DNA from: Lucinisca nassula
Lineage: Eukaryota > Mollusca > Bivalvia > Lucinida > Lucinidae
Assembly: GCA_963580285.1 (NCBI GenBank)
Contig: OY757011.1
Span: 100,718,316 to 100,782,315 of the forward strand
Reading direction: 5' to 3'
DNA: 64,000 nt
Shown here: positions 16,061 to 63,409 of the stretch, piece by piece
Numbering within the stretch: the first letter of the stretch is position 1
How the letters are laid out: every line of letters begins with the position of its first letter
The notes under the pieces: model-generated
Database searches by the model: none
The model's input: the letters and a program-made list of their open reading frames with translations, nothing else
What the model was told of the DNA's origin: nothing
Made by a program: the position numbers and the translations under genes

Positions 16061-16930
16061 AATCATGAAAGAACCTTGTTGCAGAACAGATTTAACTCCA
16101 ACATTGAATTTTGAAATTAAATCGGAATGACGTCTATAAAATTTTGAAAAGGCTTTGCGTAGTTTACGATACCGATAACCCCGATTAAGAAGTTTAGCAG
16201 TTTACAATTTATTACGAGTGTTGACTAGACACTCTGGCAAATCGAATTAATTGCGAAATATAAACACCATAGGATGCCGCCCGAGGAACATCACCATCCA
16301 AGAAAGGAAATTTTACAATCTCAAAATCAAAATCATCGCGTTTATCATAAATTTTGCAAGAAACAAACCCATCTACAATAGATAGTTGTAAATTCAAAAA
16401 ACAGGGCTTCGTTATCAGCAGAATTTGCTTTATTTAACTGAAGTGCTGTGCGGGGAGGGAGTAAATTTGACTGATCAAACCATCGAAACAGGTATTGTCA
16501 ATATTTAATAAATCATCCAAATATCTAGAAGTCGAGCTGAATGATTCATTGATTTCAGATTGGTTTTCAACGGAAAGGACATCATGGAGTCTCTTTCATA
16601 ACAAAACAAGAACAGATAAGCCACAAGGGGTGCGCAATTTGTACCCATCGGAATACCCACAACTTGTCTAAATAACTGAGTACCAAATCTTATGTAAATA
16701 TTGTCAAGTAGAAAGGTGAGAGCTTCACACACTTTCTAACATGACCATATAAGTATAATTCTTATGCTCTTCAGAAGTGAAAAAGCATTACTTACATTAC
16801 AGGCAAGATAGAGTGAGTCTTCACTATGAAATGTCCATTCAGTTCAATAATTTAGTTTTTCTTTAATACGAATGTGAGGAAGTGTAGTGTAAAGGGTGGA
16901 AAAATCGTAGTCTTGCCATGACTTTCCTTG
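16060..16930 (-). pseudogene. Penelope-like (Naiad-type) reverse transcriptase fragment
   Basis: On the minus strand from about 16930 down come FSTLYTTLPH (motif A, the Asp before it in the adjoining codon), SEDSLYLACNV, CEALTFLLDNIYIRFGT, GIPMGTNCAPL (motif B), a decayed LDxWMIY in place of the YLDD box, LQLSIVDGFVSCKIYDK and YGVYISQLIRFARV. The residues match the intact copy at 40.7-41.5 kb almost throughout. Frameshifts and stops break it, and it stops near 16060 in MITE sequence. It sits beside + strand pieces of the same element, a complex inverted insertion. Confidence 0.88.
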
Positions 16931-20631: not shown

Positions 20632-23600
20632 ATTCTGCCGAAGGCTATGTCGCGCCTGTGGGGGCGCAAAGTCACCAAACCATGAAATCTAGGTCAAGGT
20701 CAAACATGGATGCCTGCATTAAAATTTCACTCCTAGTTGCAAGCATGTACCAAGTATCATCAATGAAACTCTTAAAAACAGACTCTTACATCAGGGTGAA
20801 AGTTAGGGTTGTCACACTATTTTACAAAGTCAGTGAACCATAAAATGTAGGTCAAGGTCAGAAATGGATACTTGCATTTAAGTTTCAATTCCTAAATGCA
20901 AGCTTGTACCAAAAACAATTATTGAAGCTCTAATAGATCTTGAGAAATGGACTCTTACATTAGGGTGAAAGTCAGGGTGGTCGCAATAATTCACAAAGTC
21001 GGTGAACCATGAAATATGGGTCAAAGTCAAATATGGATGCTTGCGTTGCAGTTGTAATTCCTAGATGCAAGTTTGTACCAATTATAATTTAAAAAGCTTT
21101 AATAGTTTTCGAGAAATGGACTCTTACATTAGAGTGAAAGTCAGGGTGGTCGCAATAATTCACGAAGTCAGTGAACCATGAAATATAGGTCAAGGTCAGA
21201 TATGGATGCTTGGGTTGAAGTTGCAATGCCTGGATGCAAGTTTGTATCAAGAATGATTAATGAAGCTCTAATAGTTCTCAAGATATGGACTTGCTGACAA
21301 GATTTTATTAAGAAAAAAAACAAGGCATCGCTTGCGATACAAATCCCCTCGCACAAGACAATAAGTGTGTGGAAAACACTGAAATGAACAAAGTCCAACT
21401 TGCTTGAGATATTATCATATGCAACATTTGTGTAAAGTTTGTTTAAAAATCCATCCATAAATGTAGGTTATAGAGTGATGACAATATTTCTCTTAAAATA
21501 GTCATAGGGACCTTGACTTGAGGCCATGGCCGTGAAGAAGATCTTGCTCAAGATATTATCATAAGCATCTTGTGTGTGAAGTTAGATTAAAATCATAAAT
21601 GTAGGCGGTAAAGCAATGGCAAAGTTTTTCTAAAAATAGCCACAGTGACCTTGACCTTGAGGTCATGACCTTGAAAGTCAAGCAACTCGAGATATTACCA
21701 TAAGAAACATTTGTGTGAATTTCTATTAACATCCATCAATAAATGTAGGCACTAGAGCGATGACAAAGATTTTCTCAAGATAGCCACAGTGACCTTGACC
21801 TTGAAAGTCAAAATAGCTCGAGATATTGTCATAAGGAACATTTGTGTGAAGTTATACTGAAATCGGTGAAGAAATGTAAGCGCTAGAGCAATGTCAAAGT
21901 TTTTCTAAAAATAGCCACAATGACCTTGCGTTGAAAGTCAAACTCACTCGAGGTATTGTCATAAGGAACATTTGTGTGAAGTTATATTGAAATCAGTGAA
22001 GAAATATAGTCGCTAGGGCGATGACAAAGTTTTTCTAAAAATAGCCACAGTGACCTTGACCTTGAAAGTCGAAATCACTCAAGATATTGTCGTAAGGAAC
22101 ATTTGTGTGAAGTTATATTGAAATTGGTGAAGAAATGTAAGCGCTAGAGCCTAACAAAGTTTTTCTAAAAATAGCCACAGTGACCTTGACCTTGAAAGTG
22201 GAACTCGCTACAGATATTGTCATAAGGAACATTGTGTAAAAAGAATTAAAATTGGTGAAAAAATGTAAGCGCTAGAGCAATTACAAAGTTTTTCTAAAAA
22301 TAGCCACAGCGACCTTGACCTTGAAAGTCGAACTCTTTCGAGGTATTGTCATAAGGATCATTTGTGTGAAGTTATATTAAAATCGGTGAAGAAATGTAGG
22401 CGCTGGAGCGATGACAAAGTTTTTCTAAAAAAAAGCCATTGTGACCTTGACCTTGAAAGTCGAACTCTTTCGAGGTATTGTCATAAGGATCATTTGTGTG
22501 AAGTTTTATTAAAATCGGTGAAGAAATGTAAGCGCTAGAGCGATGACAAAGTTTTTCTAAAAATAGCCACAGTGACCTTGACCTTGAAAGTGGAACCCCC
22601 TAGAGATATTGTCATAAGGAACATTTGTGTGAAGTTATATTGAAATATGAAGAAATGTAGGCGCTAGGGAGATGACAAAATTTTTCTAAAAAATAGCTAC
22701 AGTGACCTAAACCTTGAGATCATGACCCTGAAAGTCGAACTCGCTGAGATATTGTTATAAGGAACATTTGTATGAAGTTATATTGAAATCAGTGAAGACA
22801 TGCAGGCGTTAGAGCGATGACAAATGTTTTCTTAAAATAACCACAGTGACCTTGACCTTGAGGTCATGACCTTGAAAGTCGAACTCGCGGAGATATAGTC
22901 ATAAGAAACATTTGTGTGAAGTTATATTGAAATCAGTGAAGAAATGTAGGCGCTAGAGCGATGACAATTTTTTTTTAAAAATAGCCACAGTGACCTTGAC
23001 CTTGAAAGTGGAGCCCGCTAGAGATATTGTCATAAGGAACATTTGTGTGAAGTTATATTGAAATCGGTGAAGAAATGTAGGCGCTAGAGCGATGACAAAT
23101 TTTTTTCTAAAAAATAGCTCGGTGACCTTGACCTTGAGGTCATGACCCTGAAAGTTGAACTCGCTGAGATATTGTCATAAGGAAGATTTGTGTGAAGTTA
23201 TATTGAAATCAGTGAAGACATGTAGGCGCTAGAGCGATGACAAAGTTTTTCTTAAAATAGCCACAGTGACCTTGACCTTGAGGTCATGACCTTGAAAGTC
23301 GAACTTGCAGAGATATTGTCATAAGAAACATTTGTGTGAAGTTATATTGAAATCAGTGAAGAAATGTAGGCGCTAGAGCGATGACAAAGTTTTTCTAAAA
23401 ATAGCCACAGTGACCTTGACCTTGAGGTCATGACCTTGAAAGTCGAATCGCTCGAGATATTGTCATAAGAAACATTTGTGTGAAGTTATATTGAAATCAG
23501 TGAAGAAATGTAGGCGCTAGTGTGATAACAAAGTTTTTCTAAAAATAGCCACAGTGACCTTGACCTTGAGGCCATCACCTTGAAAGTCGAACTCGCTCGA

Positions 23601-26185
23601 GATATTTTTATAAGGAACATTTGTGTGAAGTAATATTGAAATTGGTGAAGAAATGTAGGCGCTAGAGCGATGACAAAGTTTTTATAAAAAATAGCCACAG
23701 TGACCTTGACCTTGAGGTCATGACCTTGAAAGTCGAACTCGCTCGAGATTTTTTTATAAGGAACATTTGTGTGAAGTTTTATTGAAATTGGTGAAGAAAT
23801 GTAGACGCTAGAGCGATGACAAAGTTTTTATAAAAATAGCCACAGTGACCTTGACCTTGAGGTCATGACCTTGACAGTCGAACTCGCTCGAGATTTTTTA
23901 TAAGGAACATTTGTGTGAAGAAATATAGTCGCTAGGGCGATGACAAAGTTTTTCTAAAAATAGCCACAGTGACCTTGACCTTGAAAGTCGAAATCACTCA
24001 AGATATTGTCGTAAGGAACATTTGTGTGAAGTTATATTGAAATTGGTGAAGAAATGTAGGCGCTAGAGCGATGACAATGTTTTTCTAAAAATAGCCACAG
24101 TGACCTTGACCTTGAGGTCATGACCTTGAAAGTCGAACTGACTCGAGATTTTTTATAGGTAAAATTTGTGTGAAGTTATATTAAAATCGGTCAAGAAACG
24201 AAGGCGCTAGAGCGATGACAAAAGTACGTACGGGACAACTGCTATATCCGCCCTCACAACTATGTTGTGCGAGGGGATGATAAAAAAATTCAAAGGGCAA
24301 TAACTCTTGAAAGGGGCATAATCCGGATGAGAAAAAAATACGCGTCAGCTTATTTTCCATTAGGAATGCATATATGAAATTTCAAAACCATAGCATGCAC
24401 AGTTCTAAAGTTATGCTATGCATCACTTTTAGCATTCATTACAATGGGCACAAATTACCAAAATGACAAAGGGCCATAACTCACTAAAGTATTTTTCGGA
24501 ATTTTGTCAAAAGTTAATCAGTTCATATACTCATCACCACCCATATACTCAAGAACATTCAAGGCTCTAGCTCCAAAAGTGTTTGAGATATTTTGCTGAC
24601 AAGATTTTATTAAAAAAATTTCAAAGGGCAATAACTCTTGAAAGGGGCATAATCCGGACGAGAAAAAAAGATGCGTCTGCTAATTTTCCATGAGGAATCC
24701 ATATATGAAATTTCAAAACCCTAGCATACACGGTTCTAAAGTAATGCTATGCATCACTTTTAGCATACATTACAATGGGCACAAATTACGAAAATGACAA
24801 AGGGCCATAACTCACAAAGTACTTTTCAGAATTTTGTCAAAAATTAATCAGTTCATCTACTCATCACAACCAATATATTCACCAACTTTCAAGGCTCTAG
24901 CTCCAATAGTTTTTGAGATATCTTGCTGACAAGATTTTATTAGAAAAATTTCAAAGGGCAATAACTCTTGAAGGGGGCATAATCTGGAAGAGAAAAAAAA
25001 TACGCGTCAGCTAATTTTCCATGAGGAATCCATATATGACATTTCAAAACCCTAGCATACACGGTTCTTAAGTTATGCTATGCATCACTTTTAGCATACA
25101 TTATAATGGGCACAAATTACCAACATGACAAAGGGCCATAACTCACAAAGTATTTTTTTGAATTTTGTCAAAAGTTAATCAGTTCATCTACTCATCACCA
25201 CCAATATATTCACCAACTTTCAAGGCTCTAGCTCCAAAAAATTTTGAGATATCTTGCTGACAAGATTTTAAAAGAAAAATTTCAAAGGGCAATAACTCTT
25301 GAAGGGGGCATAATCCGGAAGAGAAAAAAAATACGCGTCAGCTTATTTTCCATCAGAAATGCCTATATGAAATTTCAAAACTATAGCATACAGGGTTCTG
25401 AAGTTATGCTATGCATCACTTTTAGCATACATTACAATGGGCACAAATTACCAAAATTTCAAAGGGCCATAACTCACAAAGTATTTTTCAGAATTTTGTC
25501 ATAAGTTAATCAGTTCATCTACTCATCACCACCAATCTATTCACCAACGTTCAAGGCTTTAGCTCCAATAGTTTTTGAGATATCTTGCTGACAATATTTT
25601 ATTAAAAAAAATTCAAAGGGCAATAACTCTTAAAGGGGGCATAATCTGGACGAGAAAAAAAAATAAGCGTCAGCTAATTTTCCATGAGGAATCCATATAT
25701 GAAATTTCAAAACCCTAGCATACACGGTTCTAAAGTTATGCTATGCATCACTTTTAGCATACATTACAATGGGCACAAATTACCAAAATGACAAAGGGCC
25801 ATAACTCACAAAGTATTTTTCGGAATTTTATCAAAAGTTAATCAGTTCATCTACTCATCACCACCAATATATTCACCAACTTTCAAGGCTCTAGCTCAAA
25901 TAGTTTTTGAGATATCTTGCTGACAAGATTTTATTCAAAAAATTTCAAAGGGCAATAACTCATGAAGGGGGCATAATCCGGACGAGAAAAAATATACGCG
26001 TCAGCTAATTTTCCATGAGGAATCCATATATGAAATTTCAAAACCCTAGCATACACGGTTCTATAGTTATGCTATGCATCAAAAGCGTAACGGACGGACG
26101 AACGGACGAACAGACGAACGGACGAACGAACCAGAAGCAATATGCCCCTCCAACTTTTTCAAAGTTAGGGGCATAAAAAAAAGCC
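20632..26185. mobile_element. large pearl/Helentron-like element with two core arrays, nested host
   Basis: Starts near a GGCTATGTCGCGCCTGTGGGGGCGC segment. Array one (20680-21300) has about four units of 155 bp with AGGTCAAGGTCA. Array two (24290-26085) has about 5.5 units of 325-335 bp, each with CAAAGGGCAATAACTCTTGA and GGCATAATCCGGA. It closes with a GACGGACGAACGGACGAAC microsatellite (26090-26130) and a hairpin, TATGCCCCTCCAACTTT / AAAGTTAGGGGCATA. TTGCTGACAAGATTTTATTA, a junction of array-two units, also occurs at 21290, so the element at 21340-24277 appears to be inserted inside this one. Confidence 0.65.
21340..24277. mobile_element. nested pearl/Helentron-like element, about 20 core units
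   Basis: The ends ATCCCCTCGCACAA (about 21345) and TTGTGCGAGGGGAT (about 24263) are perfect 14-bp inverted repeats. Between them is a tandem array of about 20 units of 120-145 bp, each with GTGACCTTGACCTTGA, often AGGTCATGACCTTGAAAGTC, then ATTGTCATAAGGAACATTTG and GCGCTAGAGCGATGACAAAG. The units differ mainly by presence or absence of the 12-bp AGGTCATGACCT palindrome. Confidence 0.85.
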
Positions 26186-26677: not shown

Positions 26678-26872
26678 CATAGTGTAGATTATATTTTCTT
26701 GTCCTTTGGGATCATTGATTCCATTGTGGAATTTTGAAAATATCTGAGGGTCACTGATGAGGCCTAATTGGCCGAAACTAGCTGGTCTGGCCCAGAAAAC
26801 ATCTACACTCCATATATTTCTGTTCTGCGTTGTATTCTTTGCTTCCAAAGGATAGCCGTATTATAGAACGTA
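26678..26872 (+). mobile_element. hammerhead-ribozyme retroelement fragment
   Basis: From CATAGTGTAGATTATATTTT to GGATAGCCGTATTATAGAAC, this aligns with the same blocks at 49395-49600 and, inverted, at 43375-43570. It contains the ribozyme at 26748-26793. Partial copy. Confidence 0.8.
26748..26793 (+). ncRNA. type I hammerhead ribozyme
   Basis: The core reads CUGAUGA (26754-26760), stem II GGCC/GGCC with a 5-nt loop, then GAAA. Stem III is ACUAG/CUGGU and nearly self-complementary. Stem I pairs GGGUCA with UGGCCC (one G-U). The cleavage triplet is GUC, with cleavage predicted after C26787. All conserved core bases are present, so self-cleavage is plausible. Confidence 0.88.
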
Positions 26873-27024
26873 TTTAAAGATACCAAAATTTATTGACAAA
26901 ATCTTTTAACTTTACTCTGAATCTATCTTTATAATCCTATTTATTAATCCCACAGAAAAATCACTGTGTCAAAAAGAATAATAATCCTCAAGTAATCCAA
27001 ACAGGATTGAGAATGCAATTTTTC

Positions 27025-38700: not shown

Positions 38701-41700
38701 GACTTTAGACCCTTAAATTTGTCTTCTGTAACTTCAGTTAATCTCAAAGGAGCAGGCAATACCAATGTTTTTGGGAGTAGTCTTCGTATAAGACTATCTC
38801 CTCTCAAATCACCCATCCTTCGAAAATATACTAATCCGTGGAAAAGAAGTGGAATGTATCCTAGTATTTCTAAGTGCAATGCCAAGAGGTGCAGATGTTG
38901 TTCGCATTTAAGCACTGCGTCTACCGTTACTTCATCTGTAAACGGTAGACGCTTCTCTGTAGTTAACATGTCTGATTTGACATGACAGTCTACAGATTTA
39001 ATGTATCTAATTACTTGACGTGCTGCAAACTGTAATATGCAGTACGTCGGTCAAACTAACCGCATGCTTAAAACTAGATTGAACGAGCATTATCGTAGAA
39101 TGAGTAAGCCTAAGAAAACTGACACTTTCTTGTACCGTCACTTTCGACGTACAGGTCATTCTGTAAATAGCATTATTATAAAACCAGTGGAAAAACTTTA
39201 TTACGATGCAAATTCTACATCTAGATTCAAAATAATCAAAAGACATGAAGCTGAACTGAAATGGATTAAATTTTTACAGACCCCTTTTCCACTGGGATTT
39301 AATGACAACATTTATCATGAGGGTAATATTTCCAGAATGCCGGACTTTGATATTTTCTCACTCCTGGAATGTCGAAAACGCAGAACTAGATCTCACGGCA
39401 CCAGGAAAAATGGTAACTTTAAACGTAAATCACGTGCGTTTAAACGAAACAATACTAGACTGAAGTGACTGTCAATTATATTATTAAATCATGGACGCCA
39501 CTCTATGCTTTCATTTTTAAGTTCATTACCCGTTTCTGTTTTACGTCTTCTGGACACCGAGGCGAATAAATTCTACGATAGTTCTCATCAGTTATATGAT
39601 GCGGCTCTCTTAACTAGAGGCTATACTCAGCATACTCTCCGTCCTTACATTGATTCTGAAATTAATCATAAACGTCATTTCTTCAAAATATCCTTCATTA
39701 ATAAGGGTATGGATTTTATAGATTTGCCCAGTATCTTCCATGAGAGATCGGTGCTTTCTTCCATTCCTGCTTATTTTCAAAATACTGAAACACCTATAAT
39801 TTGCTATAAATATAACAAACCTGTTAGATCTATCATTTTTAATTTCAATAAACTTGTTTCAGATCTTGATATTGATACTAATACTCCTGATTCATGTGAT
39901 TGTAAAAACTCAAAGTATTGCTATCCTGCTGCTGGTCATGTAATTACTGGCAATTTGAAAATTATTCCTGATTCTAGGATAAGGAATATAATTTCTAAAG
40001 GACCGAAATATCGGTTTCCTTCTAAAATTGATTTCAGTAAATGTAGAGATGAAATCGCTGCTTCCTTGAATGAATTCGGTAATCGATGGTGTAAGCGAGA
40101 GTATGTTGAGTATAAAGCCCTAAAGGACTGGAAACTTAGCATTTTAAGGCTAGTGAATAAACGCATTTCTTTCTATTCTCAAAATACTAACTTATTACCT
40201 CCTAAGCCCAAGACGTCTTTACGTCATCTTAAACTAGGTATTCAAGAATTTCATAAGAAGTTTGTTTTGGCCCCTGCAGACAAGGCCGCTAACAACGTCG
40301 TCGTTGTGTGACGGCTCCACTATGTTAACACGCTTAAGCAGGAGCTTGGTGGTACTAAGGCCTATGAACTTCAGCCTTTGGCTGAAGAGAGAGCTATAGT
40401 AGATAAACATGTTTGTCTTTCAGCCACCAAGTTTGCTGTGTGTGTTAACGAAGGCCAAGACAAGCTTCCTACGCTATACTGGTTACCAAAACTTCATAAA
40501 AAACCTTATAAAGCACGGTTTATTGCAAATTCTAGTTCTTGCACTACCACTGAACTTTCTAAATTATTAACTTCCTGTCTTACTGCTATTAAAACGCATG
40601 TAATTAAATATTGTGATAAAGTCTTTGAAAGATCAGGAAGAAATCTGTTTTGGTCTATAAAAAATTCGAATGAGGTTTTAAATAAATTGAAATCTAGACA
40701 GTTTCGTGCTTCTAGTCTGTCTACCTACGATTTTTCCACTCTTTACACTACACTTCCTCATAATCTTATAAAAGAAAAGCTTAATGATTTAATTGAATGG
40801 GCTTTTCACAGAGAAGATTCTCTCTATCTTGCATGTAATGTCAGAAATGCATTTTTCACTTCTAAAGAGCATAAGAATTATACACTTTGGTCATGTCAGA
40901 AAGTGTGTGATGCCCTCAACTTTCTACTTGACAATATTTATATTAGATTCGGTACTAAGTTATTTAGACAAATTGTGGGTATTCCGATGGGTACTAATTG
41001 CGCACCTCTTGTGGCTGATCTGTTCTTGTATTGTTATGAAAGAGACTTCATTTTGTCGCTTTCCATTGATAACCAATCTGAAATTATTGAAGCTTTTAGC
41101 TCTACTTCTAGATATTTAGATGATTTATTAAATATTGATAATACCTATTTTGATGGTTTGATCAGTCAGATTTACCCCCTAGAACTTCAGTTAAATAAAG
41201 CAAATTCTTCTGATACCGAGGCCCCGTTTTTGGATTTACATCTATCTATTGTAGATGGATTTGTTTCGTGCAAAATTTATGATAAACGCGATGACTTTGA
41301 TTTTGAGATTGTAAATTTTCCTTTTTTGGATGGTGATGTTCCTCGTGCGCCATCCTATGGCGTTTATATTTCGCAATTAATTCGATTTGCTAGAGTGTGT
41401 AGTCATGTAACTGACTTCAACACTCGTAATAAATTATTAACGGCTAAACTTCTTAATCATGGTTATCGGTACCATAAACTACGCAAAGCCTTTTCAAAAT
41501 TTTATAGACGCCATTCTGATTTTATTTCAAAATTCAATATTGGACTTAAATCTCTTCTGCAACAAGGTCTATCGGAACCCGAATTTTATGGTGACTTAGT
41601 ATATAAATTCAGAAAAATATATAACCGCAATGACTTCAGCACCCAATTTCGTAAAATCATTCTTCGATATAAAAAGATTGGGTACAACATGGATATTATA

Positions 41701-41811
41701 CGACAGACTGCATGCATGGTAGTTAACCCAATCACGGTTGGCAACTTTGCTTCCCTCTTTAATTGCACGCCGGTTGGTCAGGCCTCAGATTCTATGACGG
41801 CTCCAACCTAA
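38701..41811 (+). CDS. Naiad-type Penelope element protein: GIY-YIG endonuclease plus reverse transcriptase, probable selenoprotein
   Basis: One frame stays free of TAA and TAG from 38671 to the TAA at 41809-41811. It contains four TGA codons: 38983, 39016, 39466 and 40309. Order: a CxxxxCxCC cluster (38870); GIY-YIG endonuclease with MYLIT (39001), QYVGQT (39040), Arg in LKTRLNEH, the H/H pair in YRHFRRTGH and Glu in RHEAELKWIKFLQT; a CxC linker (SCDCKNSKYC, 39894); and a reverse transcriptase with DFSTLYTTLPH (40730), GIPMGTNCAPLVADL (40978) and YLDD (41113). N-terminal endonuclease and CxC linker define the Naiad clade, and clam Naiads are reported as selenoproteins. The first two TGAs fall where PLE endonucleases have zinc-ligand Cys. 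The 5' end is truncated near the Gypsy junction and the first in-frame ATG is 38854. If UGA is not recoded, it is a pseudogene with four nonsense changes. Confidence 0.85.
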
Positions 41812-41861
41812 AGGCTTATTGAAAATTAAAGAGATAATGTTGGTTGGTGCCTGATGCTCTG
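41786..41861 (+). promoter_or_regulatory. SECIS element overlapping the Naiad stop codon
   Basis: ATGA (41794-41797) and TGAT (41852-41855) can form the non-Watson-Crick quartet. Above it GGCTCCAACC pairs with GGTTGGTGCC (nine pairs, one U-U). AAA (41810-41812) lies 12 nt after ATGA, the usual SECIS distance. A short helix TTATT/GATAA above the AAA gives a type 2 form. CAGA/TCTG closes below. The TAA stop lies in the structure and supplies the apical A bases. Folded by hand only. Confidence 0.8.
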
Positions 41862-42425
41862 TCTCTGGTCGGGCTCATCGGAGTCTAACTGTTGGTTTTC
41901 TTTTGCTCCAGCATTTCAGTGGTTTCTTGCTGTCGAGTCCTCACCGTTGTCTCACCTCTGTGGTTCTTTGATTTCTGTGTTCACGGAGATGTTGCACTGA
42001 TGAGTTAGGAGGCCTTCATGCGGACTGAACAAATTATTTGTCTAAATCGCGACGGAAGTAAGGGCGAGGATTGTGGCCATGTAAAATCGATTTAAGCCCC
42101 CCAGTGGAAATCTTCCACTGACCGTTCCAAGGCGGCTCTTCTGTGGCGATTTATTTGTGTTGTTGTTTGTTACTTACTGTGTGTATCACTTGTGTGTTTT
42201 AATTTTGGATGGCCATATGGCCATTTTGTGGGAAAGTAACTGTCCATATGGCCTTCCTTTGTTTAGGTTTCCATTATGGTCTGGTCGCTTAATGTTTGTA
42301 TTTCTTTCCCTTTGGTGTCTTTTATGGATGGAGTAAGTTAATTGTATCAATTCCTGATCTTTGTTTTACTTCTACTTTTTATGTGCAAAGTTAAATATTT
42401 CAGGACTATAAACCCGCGGAACCAC
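41812..42425 (+). mobile_element. Naiad 3' tail / pseudo-LTR
   Basis: After the SECIS comes the block GTCTAACTGTTGGTTTTCTT, GAACAAATTATTTGTCTAAA, GGGAAAGTAACTGTCC and TTCCCTTTGGTGTC, which recurs without coding sequence at 11.7, 17.4-18.0 and 47.5-48.0 kb. Gypsy protease/integrase sequence resumes on the minus strand at about 42430. Confidence 0.75.
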
Positions 42426-43374: not shown

Positions 43375-43600
43375 GGTTATCCTTTGGAAGCAAAGAATAC
43401 AACACAGAACTGAAAAATATGGAGTGAACATGTTTTCTGGGCCAGACTAGCTAGTTTCGGCCAATTAGGCCTCATCAGTGACCCTCAGATATTTTCAAAA
43501 TTCCACAATGGAACCAATGATCCCAAAGGACAAGAAAATATAATCTACACTATGATGTAGGGCATGGAGACGTTTTACCGCCGCCACACATTCCCACACA
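43375..43600 (-). mobile_element. hammerhead-ribozyme retroelement inserted in Gypsy gag
   Basis: On the minus strand: ACTACAGCTGGTGTG, GTGGCGGCGGTAAAACGTCT, CATCATAGTGTAGATTAT, the ribozyme, then GTTGTATTCTTTGCTTCC and AACCCTTTTATAGAACATAT. Same family as 49303-49610. Gag sequence flanks it on both sides. Confidence 0.82.
43439..43484 (-). ncRNA. type I hammerhead ribozyme (minus strand)
   Basis: GGGUCA, CUGAUGA, stem II GGCC/GGCC, GAAA, stem III ACUAG/CUAGU (a perfect palindrome), triplet GUC, then UGGCCC closing stem I with one G-U. The core is complete. Confidence 0.88.
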
Positions 43601-49302: not shown

Positions 49303-49610
49303 CGGAATTCCAAAAGATAACCCTTTTATAGAACATATTAATGTCACTACAGCTGGTGTCTTGGAATGTGTGGCGGCCGAAAAAAAAGTATCCCTGCCCT
49401 ACATCATAGTGTAGTTTATATTTTCTTGTCCTTTGGGATCATTGGTTCTATTGTGGAATTTTGAAAATATTTGTTGATCACTGATGAGGCCTAATTGGCC
49501 GAAACAAGCTAGTCTGGCCCAGAAAACATGTATACTTCATATTTTCCAGTTCTGTGGTGTAGTCCTTGCTTCCAAAGGATACCCCTTTTGTAGAACATAT
49601 TGTTCACATG
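49303..49610 (+). mobile_element. hammerhead-ribozyme retroelement copy
   Basis: GATAACCCTTTTATAGAACA (49313) and GATACCCCTTTTGTAGAACA (about 49580) are direct repeats at the two ends. Between them are ACTACAGCTGGTGTC, GTGTGGCGGCC and a ribozyme at 49475-49520. Confidence 0.78.
49475..49520 (+). ncRNA. hammerhead ribozyme, probably inactive
   Basis: CUGAUGA, stem II GGCC/GGCC and GAAA are intact and the triplet is GUC. Stem III has an A-A mismatch (ACAAG/CUAGU), and stem I (UUGAUCA against UGGCCC) pairs over only about three positions. Confidence 0.75.
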
Positions 49611-53665: not shown

Positions 53666-54534
53666 TCCTTGGCCACAATAGGCTTCGTTTAGTGTTCTAT
53701 ACATCTGTAAAATTTCATCTAGATATTTCTTGTTTAGTAAAGGGGCTAGGCACCAAAAACCATTTTAACATATATCAAGGGCAGATAACGCGAGAACCAG
53801 AATTGACAGAGTGATTGTGCTTGTCATAGTATGCTTCATCTAGTGTTTTATACATCTGTAAATGTTCATCAAGATATTTCTACAGCAAAGAATAAAAAGA
53901 CCAACACCATTTTCGGATCCATTCAGGGCAGATTACTCAGTCCTTGGTCATAATATGCTTTCTTTATAGGTCTATATAACTGTGAAGGTTCATTCATATA
54001 TTCCATTCGGTATAGGAATAATATTCCAAAAAACGTTTATTGGAACTATTAATGACCACAACACTATCAAATGTTAACAGATTTTGCCAATTGACAAGAC
54101 GAAACATGCTTCCTTTAGTGTTTTTTTTTTTTTTTTATCTGTGAAGTTTCATCCAAATATTCCATAAAGTAAATGAATAAGAGTTCAAAAATCATTTCAT
54201 AGGAATTCGTAATGGTCATAACTCTGTCAAATGTTAACGCATTTTGCCCGTTTACAATCCCAAACACGATTCCTTTGTGGTCTTTATATGTGTGAAGTAT
54301 TTAAGTAAAGGAAAAAAATATCCAAAACCCATTTACGGGCCGCGCCCATCGGGGTTGAAGAAATAGATGGGCTGCTTGATACTTCCACGCAGAGCTGAAA
54401 CCGACCCGCACACGAGCACTAATAAACCGCTTAGAGGATCCAAGCCTGCCCAGGCAAAGCGATGCGGGTGTCGGACCGTCCTTGCTTATAAACCCTATTG
54501 GTTTCATTGGGCGGCTGGGCTTGAGATCATTACA

Positions 54535-54580
54535 GGGTCACTGATGAGGCTTTATTAGCCGAAACTACGTAGTATGACCC
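54535..54580 (+). ncRNA. type I hammerhead ribozyme, upstream copy
   Basis: Stem I GGGUCA/UGACCC (six Watson-Crick pairs), CUGAUGA 54541-54547, stem II GGCU/AGCC with loop UUAUU, GAAA 54561-54564, stem III ACUAC/GUAGU (a palindrome without a loop), triplet GUA, with cleavage predicted after A54574. Stem III without a loop is normally unstable in one molecule and favours action as a dimer. Confidence 0.93.
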
Positions 54581-54917
54581 ATCTTCTTTCTTATGAATGT
54601 TTTCATTGGTCTTAAAGGAACTCATTTTTGATTATTATTTGCCTTCACTGCAGCTGGTGTTGTGCCGTGTGGCGGCCGTAAAACGTCTCCCCGTACACCA
54701 ACCATAGTGCAGTTTATATTTTACTTTTGGTCCTTTGAGATCAGCGTGAATATTCTGAGAAATCAGAAATAAATTATTTGTTTAGACTCATATTCTAGAC
54801 AGGTTTTTAATTATTTGGACCCCATTTTGATTTATATCAGTCTTTGAATCGACTGCCTATTCGAAATTCGCAAAATTGGAGTTTGTGTCCTCTGGCTTTC
54901 TTTGCCGGATCATTACA

Positions 54918-61745: not shown

Positions 61746-62332
61746 ACACGGGTTAGTTAACGTTATAATGTACAGTGAAATTCGGCTATTAAGACCACCT
61801 GAAATTAGGGCTGGCTAATCAGAGCATAAAAGATAATCGGTTACCAGTCCTGCCATTGTGATCGATAATCGATTAGCAATCACGGAAAATTTGGCCATAA
61901 TTTTACCTGTCTGGCTTTCTGTCAGAGCATGACTCTTACCATATGTTGCAATTTACAATATGTATTTGAACAAACAGTGTAGAACCAGATGAGACGCCGC
62001 AAAATGCGGCGTCTCATCGGGGTCTGCACTGTTTACCACTCATCCAGTTATTTTAGGCACGACTTTAGGTAGTAAATTGTACTTATCAGACAATCGATTA
62101 CAAGCAAACCAGTAATGATAATAATTTTTGTGGAATTTACCGATCGATTAATCGATTATACGATTAAGCGTACCAGCCTTACCTAAAATTAAGCCTAATT
62201 CTGCTTTAAAACGTTATTTAGTATGTTGCAGTTATTCATTCTTTGATTTTTCTGCAAACCGTGTCCTCTGGACCACTTTTTAACAGTTCCAAAAGGTTGT
62301 CTTAATATAGGGATTTTTCTGTATTATTTCAG
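61746..62332. other. intron end; one hairpin
   Basis: A perfect inverted repeat ATGAGACGCCGCA / TGCGGCGTCTCAT with flanks AAACAGTGTAGA and TCTGCACTGTTTA (61970-62035) belongs to the dispersed GACGCCGC hairpin group. The polypyrimidine tract and AG acceptor end at 62332. Confidence 0.6.
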
Positions 62333-63409
62333 GAAACAGAAGAGGAAAGCCAAAGACGAATTATGGAACAAAGGAAGAAACTAATTACTAATACTTGTAA
62401 AAGAACAGGTCCAATTTCTAACAAAACCACTGAGGTATCGGGAGTCAAAGATAAAAATTTGTCCTACTGCATGGTTCAAAAGGCCGGTTGTACTATCTAC
62501 ATACGATTGTTTAAGTTTTTAAATGGACAGAATCGACAGACAGGCACACCGCTGTCTATTGGAAAATACGACGTTCATTACGTCTCGCCTAGCCTTTATG
62601 TGAAATTTACCAAGCAGGATGCAGATTTTGTTAGTAAATCTCTTAGAGCTATGACTGTCCGGGACCCATACACTCGCCTTTGGTCAGCTTATATAGACAA
62701 ACTTTTGTTACCGGATTTCTGGCAAACGAAAGGCAAAATGATAATCAGACAAACAAGAAAGAACGCGTCTACAAAATCACTACAGTGCGGATATGACGTA
62801 ACATTCCCAGAATTCATAAAATACGTCATTTCCACCGGGCATTCCATGGCGTATCTTTCTCAAGATAAACATTGGTTACCGGCCTCAGACATCTGCGACC
62901 CCTGTGTATTTAAGCCAGAAATTATCAGTAAACAGGAAACATTCTTGAAAGATCTTAAATATACCTTATTGAAAAGCAACTTGACAAATATGCTTCGAAA
63001 ACTGATTGCTGATGATCCCACTGAATATGAAATCAAGGATGAAATAGACTATAATTTCAAAATTCATGGCCACCACAAAAAGTGTATTGATAAACTAGGT
63101 TTAAGTAAACTAATCTGGATAGCTTTGACACTCAATGGTTATATCCCTACCGGGGAAAGGTTTCCATCGGATATATACGAAGACAGCCTAAACGCCGATT
63201 CTTTATATGAAATAGTTAAGACGACACGTGCAAGACATAATGTGACTAAATCAGATATAAAGTCAGCAAGGAAAATTGCATTAAGAACTGCATATTCACA
63301 CATTTCAAAAGAAGACATGCAAAGCCTTAGAAAATTGTACAATAATGATTTTGAGATGTTTGGGTACAGAAGTGTACCGGAATTTCTTAGCGCGGAAGCA
63401 CACAGTTAG
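62333..63409 (+). CDS. carbohydrate sulfotransferase, catalytic exon
   Basis: A 358-codon terminal exon that starts after the acceptor TTCTGTATTATTTCAG in phase 0. It belongs to the Sulfotransfer_2 family (CHST8-14/HNK-1 type), Golgi enzymes that move sulfate from PAPS to sugars of glycans. The 5'-phosphosulfate loop is MVQKAGCT (62471-62494; the usual Pro before Lys is Gln). The 3'-phosphate motif is VRDPYTRLWSAY (62657-62692). The conserved C-terminal block is LYNNDFEMFGY (63335). NLT, NVT and NAS sequons suit a luminal domain. With exons 31262 and 50046 the protein would be about 417 residues, within the family range, with a type II anchor. Which sugar it sulfates cannot be told. An in-frame ATG at 62363 could start a shorter form without anchor, but that seems unlikely. 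Confidence 0.92.
   Translation, partial: ETEEESQRRIMEQRKKLITNTCKRTGPISNKTTEVSGVKDKNLSYCMVQKAGCTIYIRLFKFLNGQNRQTGTPLSIGKYDVHYVSPSLYVKFTKQDADFVSKSLRAMTVRDPYTRLWSAYIDKLLLPDFWQTKGKMIIRQTRKNASTKSLQCGYDVTFPEFIKYVISTGHSMAYLSQDKHWLPASDICDPCVFKPEIISKQETFLKDLKYTLLKSNLTNMLRKLIADDPTEYEIKDEIDYNFKIHGHHKKCIDKLGLSKLIWIALTLNGYIPTGERFPSDIYEDSLNADSLYEIVKTTRARHNVTKSDIKSARKIALRTAYSHISKEDMQSLRKLYNNDFEMFGYRSVPEFLSAEAHS

Follow-up and report, generated by a model that had tools for sequence, protein, structure and literature searches.

A young Naiad-type Penelope-like element of the clam Lucinisca nassula that very probably encodes a selenoprotein with four selenocysteines

The stretch of Lucinisca nassula DNA analysed here (64,000 nucleotides, hereafter the window) holds one copy of a young, high-copy Penelope-like element (PLE) of the Naiad type. 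Its single ORF very probably specifies a selenoprotein with four selenocysteine (Sec) residues, made with the host tRNA-Sec and a SECIS element that spans the stop codon. The SECIS hairpin, which starts in the last codons and runs across the stop, would recruit the Sec machinery, and the host tRNA-Sec would decode the four UGA codons. Sec would then stand in for two cysteines of the GIY-YIG endonuclease and one at the start of the reverse transcriptase (RT), with one more in the linker. An intact RT and endonuclease apparently need four Sec insertions by the host. Insertion of Sec at each UGA is what we infer from the sequence, and the residues might act in metal binding or in redox chemistry. 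The initial annotation had read the TGAs as Sec codons and not as decay, a view which the copies, the SECIS element and the host tRNA-Sec support. Since Sec-encoding elements of the Naiad kind have already been reported for clams and spiders the surprise is limited, and the element looks like a further member of this group. With its near-identical copies, purifying selection beyond all four UGAs and one copy that naturally has Cys for Sec, the element lends itself to asking why a transposon would depend on selenium and whether selenium supply controls its transposition.

Reading frame, domain order and affiliation

The four TGAs are the sole interruptions of the plus-strand frame 38701-41811, which runs for 1036 residues with no internal TAA or TAG and ends with a TAA (codon 1037, 41809-41811); the TGAs are codons 95, 106, 256 and 537 (Table 1). 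This confirms the frame of about 1030 codons broken by TGA only that had been described at the outset. The five remaining frames of the same stretch carry 53-149 stops each. The part of that description which did not stand is the start of the element: the other copies are homologous only from 38705 on, and the window copy is without about 40 N-terminal codons present elsewhere. Among the 29 further loci whose flanks were available, 27 have this extension open, with its ATG start in CCAAAATGA. Judged by these copies the one in the window is a 5'-truncated offspring, itself incomplete as an element. On its 3' side the element continues through the SECIS to about 42377.

Table 1. Coordinates of the element and of related pieces in the window
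Feature	Position	Strand	Evidence or remark
PLE ORF, 5'-truncated (residues 3-1036 and TAA)	38705..41811	+	copy comparison
N-terminal GIY-YIG endonuclease domain, about residues 65-192	38893..39276	+	homology to P0015 and P0028-P0030; fold elements of the predicted model
TGA, residue 95, candidate Sec codon; conserved Cys in PLE GIY-YIG domains	38983..38985	+	alignments, copies
TGA, residue 106, candidate Sec codon; conserved Cys in PLE GIY-YIG domains	39016..39018	+	alignments, copies
TGA, residue 256, linker, candidate Sec codon	39466..39468	+	relatives mostly Asp, some Cys; ORF end in the nearest two
CxC motif, residues 399-401	39895..39903	+	TGT for the first Cys here; many relatives have W or an ORF end
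Telomerase-like RT, about residues 445-860; YLDD at residues 805-808	40033..41280	+	homology, fold matches
TGA, residue 537, candidate Sec codon at the Cys right after ADKAANNVVVV, start of RT	40309..40311	+	alignments, copies
SECIS element	41784..41863	+	SECIS_1 match, strict pattern, copies
3' untranslated part common to other copies, 98-99% identity (four loci compared)	41812..42377	+	
Older fragment of a related copy, 87% DNA identity	16073..16910	-	frame breaks and TAA/TAG
Older C-terminal fragment, 86% DNA identity	18158..18351	+	SECIS quartet deleted

The layout of the ORF is Naiad-like, as had been proposed. The GIY-YIG domain (about residues 65-200) lies N-terminal and a telomerase-related RT (about 445-860) follows it, and the linker between endonuclease and RT carries a motif, C399-D-C401, which aligns with the CxC of distant relatives. 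Naiads are known for a CxC linker, tandem or inverted copies and the lack of a canonical hammerhead ribozyme, as well as for an insertion fingers domain in the RT and a bias towards microsatellites. A piece in the same orientation was found within the 1.5-kb flanks at 13 of 30 loci and an inverted one at a single locus; the tandem unit measures about 4.15 kb (4151 bp at locus L009). No hammerhead was matched by Rfam in four loci or by the core pattern in three.

Pfam GIY-YIG matched the relative P0015 with 26.4 bits, over the cut-off, and P0033 with 19.2 bits, under it; the window protein, in its read-through form, gave no Pfam family at E≤1. A PDB sequence profile search with this protein likewise returned no match at E≤1, and GIY-YIG is absent among the fold matches listed for it, which cover residues 372-960. 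Canonical EN+ PLEs (P0028, P0029, P0030) are related to the window element in both RT and GIY-YIG; they differ in having Cys at the two GIY-YIG sites where the window element has TGA, and the endonuclease is C-terminal in P0028 (residues 696-832) rather than N-terminal.

Craig, Yushenova, Rodriguez and Arkhipova are said to have described, in 2021, clam Naiads which encode several selenocysteines. Naiads and the window element have in common the N-terminal GIY-YIG, the CxC linker, the telomerase-like RT and the tandem units. The window family has four TGAs, a cysteine kept in the CxC motif and a stop-spanning SECIS. Among the titles listed in literature searches on Naiad selenoproteins, none was identifiable as treating them.

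Elsewhere in the window a hammerhead-like core lies on the minus strand at 43431-43486 (CTGATGAG...CGAAAC; RF02275, 17.6 bits, below gathering); the hammerhead form is absent from its predicted minimum-energy fold. The repeat which holds it recurs at 26678-26876 and 49344-49600, and the copy near 26743 matches Hammerhead_3 with 18.2 bits, again below gathering. A piece of a related repeat at 54530-54743 has its match in P0035, a Naiad relative from elsewhere, within the unrelated tail at the C-terminus; judging from this match, the repeat seems to lie in or beside a Naiad copy in the source of P0035 too.

The TGA codons in other copies and selection on the frame

Copies were sought in the source genome itself (2.93 billion bases). 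The DNA search scored 40 matches, the window copy included, out of 4832 first-look candidates, the unscored ones being unconfirmed as copies. The scored matches are 99-100% identical, and all save the window copy start at window position 38705. TGA is present in 40/40 at each of codons 95, 106, 256 and 537, as are TGT at codon 399 and the terminal TAA. Three further in-frame stops occur in the whole set (TAG in L003, TAA in L019, TAG in L037), none of them TGA; 8.8 would be expected from the synonymous count. Because these copies had been picked by similarity, ten tandem neighbours chosen by position were also fetched. Three of the ten reach none of the four sites; the others gave TGA in 6/6 at 95, 106 and 256 and in 7/7 at 537.

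Two further searches used proteins of relatives as queries. The first, P0033, is an N-terminal piece of 259 residues and drew 10743 candidates, of which 147 were scored; two TGAs lie inside every one of these GIY-YIG matches, presumably sites 95 and 106, and one match has a TAG in addition. With P0153, a relative having Cys at 537, 78 RT matches were scored of 135836 candidates; 77 contain one TGA and none contains TAA or TAG. In 54 of the 78 (counted by hand) the frame stays open for 780 residues, a length presumably given by the span from the third TGA to the end. The matches to both queries are partly the same copies as the 40, so that the samples are not independent. The lone exception among the 78 is L051 (C511:415900-418334), which is 99.3% identical and has TGT at 537 and TGA at 256. 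Read from its sequence, L051 is a natural Sec-to-Cys change at site 537.

The initial annotation had proposed collecting the copies and tabulating the four codons, with TGT or TGC in most copies, or TAA and TAG at equal rates, as the outcomes that would speak against Sec. Neither was seen: a single copy has TGT, at one site, and extra stops number three in all 40 copies. Its argument that decay would also give TAA and TAG is only moderate by itself, the copy comparison being decisive. TGA accounts for 29-30% of the new stops which can arise by one-step mutation from the sense codons of the ORF, and four TGAs out of four have a P of 0.007-0.008, so the argument from composition is by itself merely suggestive.

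The median pairwise divergence among the 40 copies (window copy excluded) is 0.39%. The family is therefore young, and the identity of the TGAs among these copies is due in part to recent common descent; for this reason the case for Sec leans on selection and on the diverged relatives, the latter being known as predicted proteins alone whose TGAs are deduced from ORF ends or from tryptophan (W). Pattern searches of viral contigs (3 and 46 stretches matched) and of genome contigs (31) gave none confirmed as related loci.

The 40 copies contain 174 distinct variants, of which 77 are synonymous, 94 non-synonymous and three stops. Under neutrality 188.5 non-synonymous variants would be expected (P=1e-5). 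The share of changes which alter or stop the protein has an expectation of 0.71-0.73 across segments; the values found were 0.46 for residues 3-94 (P=0.063, not significant), 0.47 for residues 107-255 (P=0.019) and 0.55 for residues 257-536 (P=0.017). Beyond the fourth TGA (residues 538-1036) 57 of 95 changes are of this kind (0.60 against 0.72 expected, P=0.016). Alternative transition weights gave P=0.005 and 0.033 for this last segment, and 0.057 and 0.072 for residues 3-94. In the two shifted frames over 538-1035 the altering share was 0.78 and 0.84, that is, no constraint. Because residues 538-1036 are constrained, translation appears to reach beyond the fourth TGA, into a part of the protein that seems to be functionally important.

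Could the TGAs be stops that arose by decay in an old copy no longer active? The window copy has lost its 5' end and is not a full element, and the window also includes another copy that has truly decayed, the minus-strand fragment at 16073..16910, whose frame breaks and TAA/TAG codons contrast with the intact frame. Such decay is nonetheless next to impossible for the family, given TGA in all 40 copies at the four sites beside three other stops in total, amino-acid changes below the neutral expectation both for the frame as a whole and for three of its four segments, and TGA in 147/147 and 77/78 of the protein-search matches. On the copy counts (40/40, 147/147, 77/78) we reject decay.

Residues at the four sites in relatives

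Among ten distant relatives (34-38% identical), nine have Cys at site 95 and one has W, and all ten have Cys at site 106; P0028, P0029 and P0030 have Cys at both sites in their canonical PLE GIY-YIG domains. This bears out the statement of the initial annotation that the first two TGAs fall on GIY-YIG cysteines. Cysteines of this kind bind zinc in PLE endonucleases, and those which Sec would replace at 95 and 106 probably do so too. The fourth TGA had been assigned to the start of the RT, and site 537, which follows the conserved ADKAANNVVVV, is indeed Cys in 11/11 distant relatives. Site 256 is different. Its 84 rows hold Asp (55), Leu (10, the distant ones), Asn (8), Cys (5) and other residues or gaps (6); P0084 and P0128, which belong to the Cys rows, are poorly aligned there, and P0208 (53% identical) has Cys too. 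Three predictions stop directly before 256, two of which are the nearest relatives of the window protein. On this alignment residue 256 is not an ancestral cysteine.

Many predicted relatives are interrupted at the same places. Of 120 listed N-terminal relatives 20 end at residue 398, at the first Cys of CxC, and represent 3476 member sequences (summed); among 120 listed RT relatives 18 begin at 539, right behind site 537. The ORF ends of predicted proteins do not identify which stop codon was present. In many other predicted relatives W is found at 95, 106, 399 and 537. This is what would be expected were TGA a tryptophan codon under another code in the element or its host. The W residues are most simply TGA translated with table 4 by a gene caller, since the unrelated tails of these predictions show an excess of W as well (48 of 1481 residues, 3.2%, against 44 of 3662, 1.2%; P=2e-6); the control for W enrichment at aligned positions was borderline (P=0.068). 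The frame itself uses TGG eight times, distant relatives have Cys at three sites, and the host has a tRNA-Sec. A tryptophan code is, with decay, at the very bottom of the scale of probability, and we reject it on the enrichment of W in the tails and on the host tRNA-Sec.

In an RT tree of 53 rows the window protein clusters with three rows which start after 537 (support 88/76). Three of the seven W rows fall within a large clade of rows starting after 537, another three make up a separate clade and the last sits on a long branch; 23 of the 27 Cys rows are in one nested clade. Judged by these predicted proteins, a site seems to be TGA in some subfamilies of the wider family and Cys in others, a pattern which the initial annotation did not have; at the DNA level the alternation is seen at site 537 only, in the one copy of the source genome already mentioned (L051). 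The relatives P0177 and P0184 are labelled Candidatus Thiodiazotropha, a name that appears in the literature for symbionts of lucinid clams; these labels most likely reflect host contamination.

SECIS element, host tRNA-Sec and Sec decoding

Rfam SECIS_1 matches the end of the ORF with 26.3 bits, under the gathering score of 35, and no other SECIS match in the window reaches E≤1 (E=0.75 for this one). The core consists of ATGA (41794-41797), a stem of 41799-41808 with 41842-41851 (nine of ten pairs), TGAT (41852-41855) and AA at the foot of the loop. A strict SECIS pattern has one match in the window, against 0.083 expected in random sequence of equal composition. SECIS_1 was also found in 4/4 other loci tested (23.4-25.1 bits, all below gathering; two matches in two of the loci). 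The TAA stop forms the foot of the apical loop, so that the last five codons double as SECIS. A SECIS which spans the stop codon is new relative to the initial annotation. From the overlap we infer that ORF and SECIS are in one RNA.

Both stem arms are kept in 28 of the first 30 copies, the window copy (L001) among them. At 41808 the window has C and the other 29 copies have G, which costs them the top pair of the stem; L016 has one further stem change and L012 has lost the element. The coding side is also conserved: M1032 is followed by a codon necessarily starting with A, as the ATGA quartet requires, in 67 of 71 relatives reaching the C-terminus, and 65 of the 71 end exactly at 1036. This tail is of low confidence in the predicted model, and the SECIS stretch folds only slightly better than shuffled sequences (z -1.18). 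In L007 and L015 the SECIS takes a second form, in which the apical loop is longer while the stems stay the same. Positions 15-167 of L007 also match SCARNA7, an snRNA family, with 39.6 bits (E 4.9e-6), less than the gathering score.

Two tRNA-Sec genes, each with the anticodon TCA, are present in the host genome (80.0 and 77.4 bits). Seven more rows over the cut-off, at 47.2-49.5 bits, are presumably other tRNAs, since the same search also matches the control genomes (14/14, above the cut-off in five). Three marks of a selenoprotein gene are present here: in-frame TGA where relatives have Cys (95, 106 and 537, with Cys in few at 256), a SECIS motif, if one below the Rfam gathering score, and a host tRNA-Sec.

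The base after each of the four TGAs is C, for which base composition gives a P of about 0.001. UGA-C is a weak, leaky stop context, and the C may aid recoding. The same context would suit plain read-through, in which near-cognate tRNAs read UGA and yield a little full-length protein with no Sec, and the SECIS score under the Rfam cut-off, together with a reading of Sec that comes from sequence alone, leaves some room for this. It is very unlikely all the same, if less so than decay or a tryptophan code. A SECIS lies at the ORF end in 5/5 loci tested, window included; at three of the sites the TGA takes the place of a conserved cysteine, and at one the source genome has both TGA and a Cys codon; and four leaky stops in series would be expected to give very little product.

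Sec decoding and termination may conceivably be coupled through the stop-spanning SECIS, a suggestion we consider improbable. A ribosome finishing the ORF would melt half of the hairpin, synthesis of the full-length enzyme would be self-limiting, and retrotransposition would be tied to host selenium. Accounts of the fowlpox virus GPX4 gene place its SECIS within the ORF, and canarypox is described as having a Cys form of GPX4 with a fossil SECIS (PMC8310308, PMC6769590). As far as these accounts go, fowlpox GPX4 resembles the window element in having the SECIS in translated sequence and not wholly in the 3' UTR, and in the Cys form of a relative; it differs in that it has one Sec in a host-derived redox enzyme, whereas the window element has four in a mobile element's own enzyme.

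The window also contains an open frame of 367 residues (62306-63409, plus strand) with a Sulfotransfer_2 domain (131 bits), and two tandem-repeat blocks, at 21390-24222 and 24282-26081, whose copies are about 74-84% and 92-93% identical, respectively.
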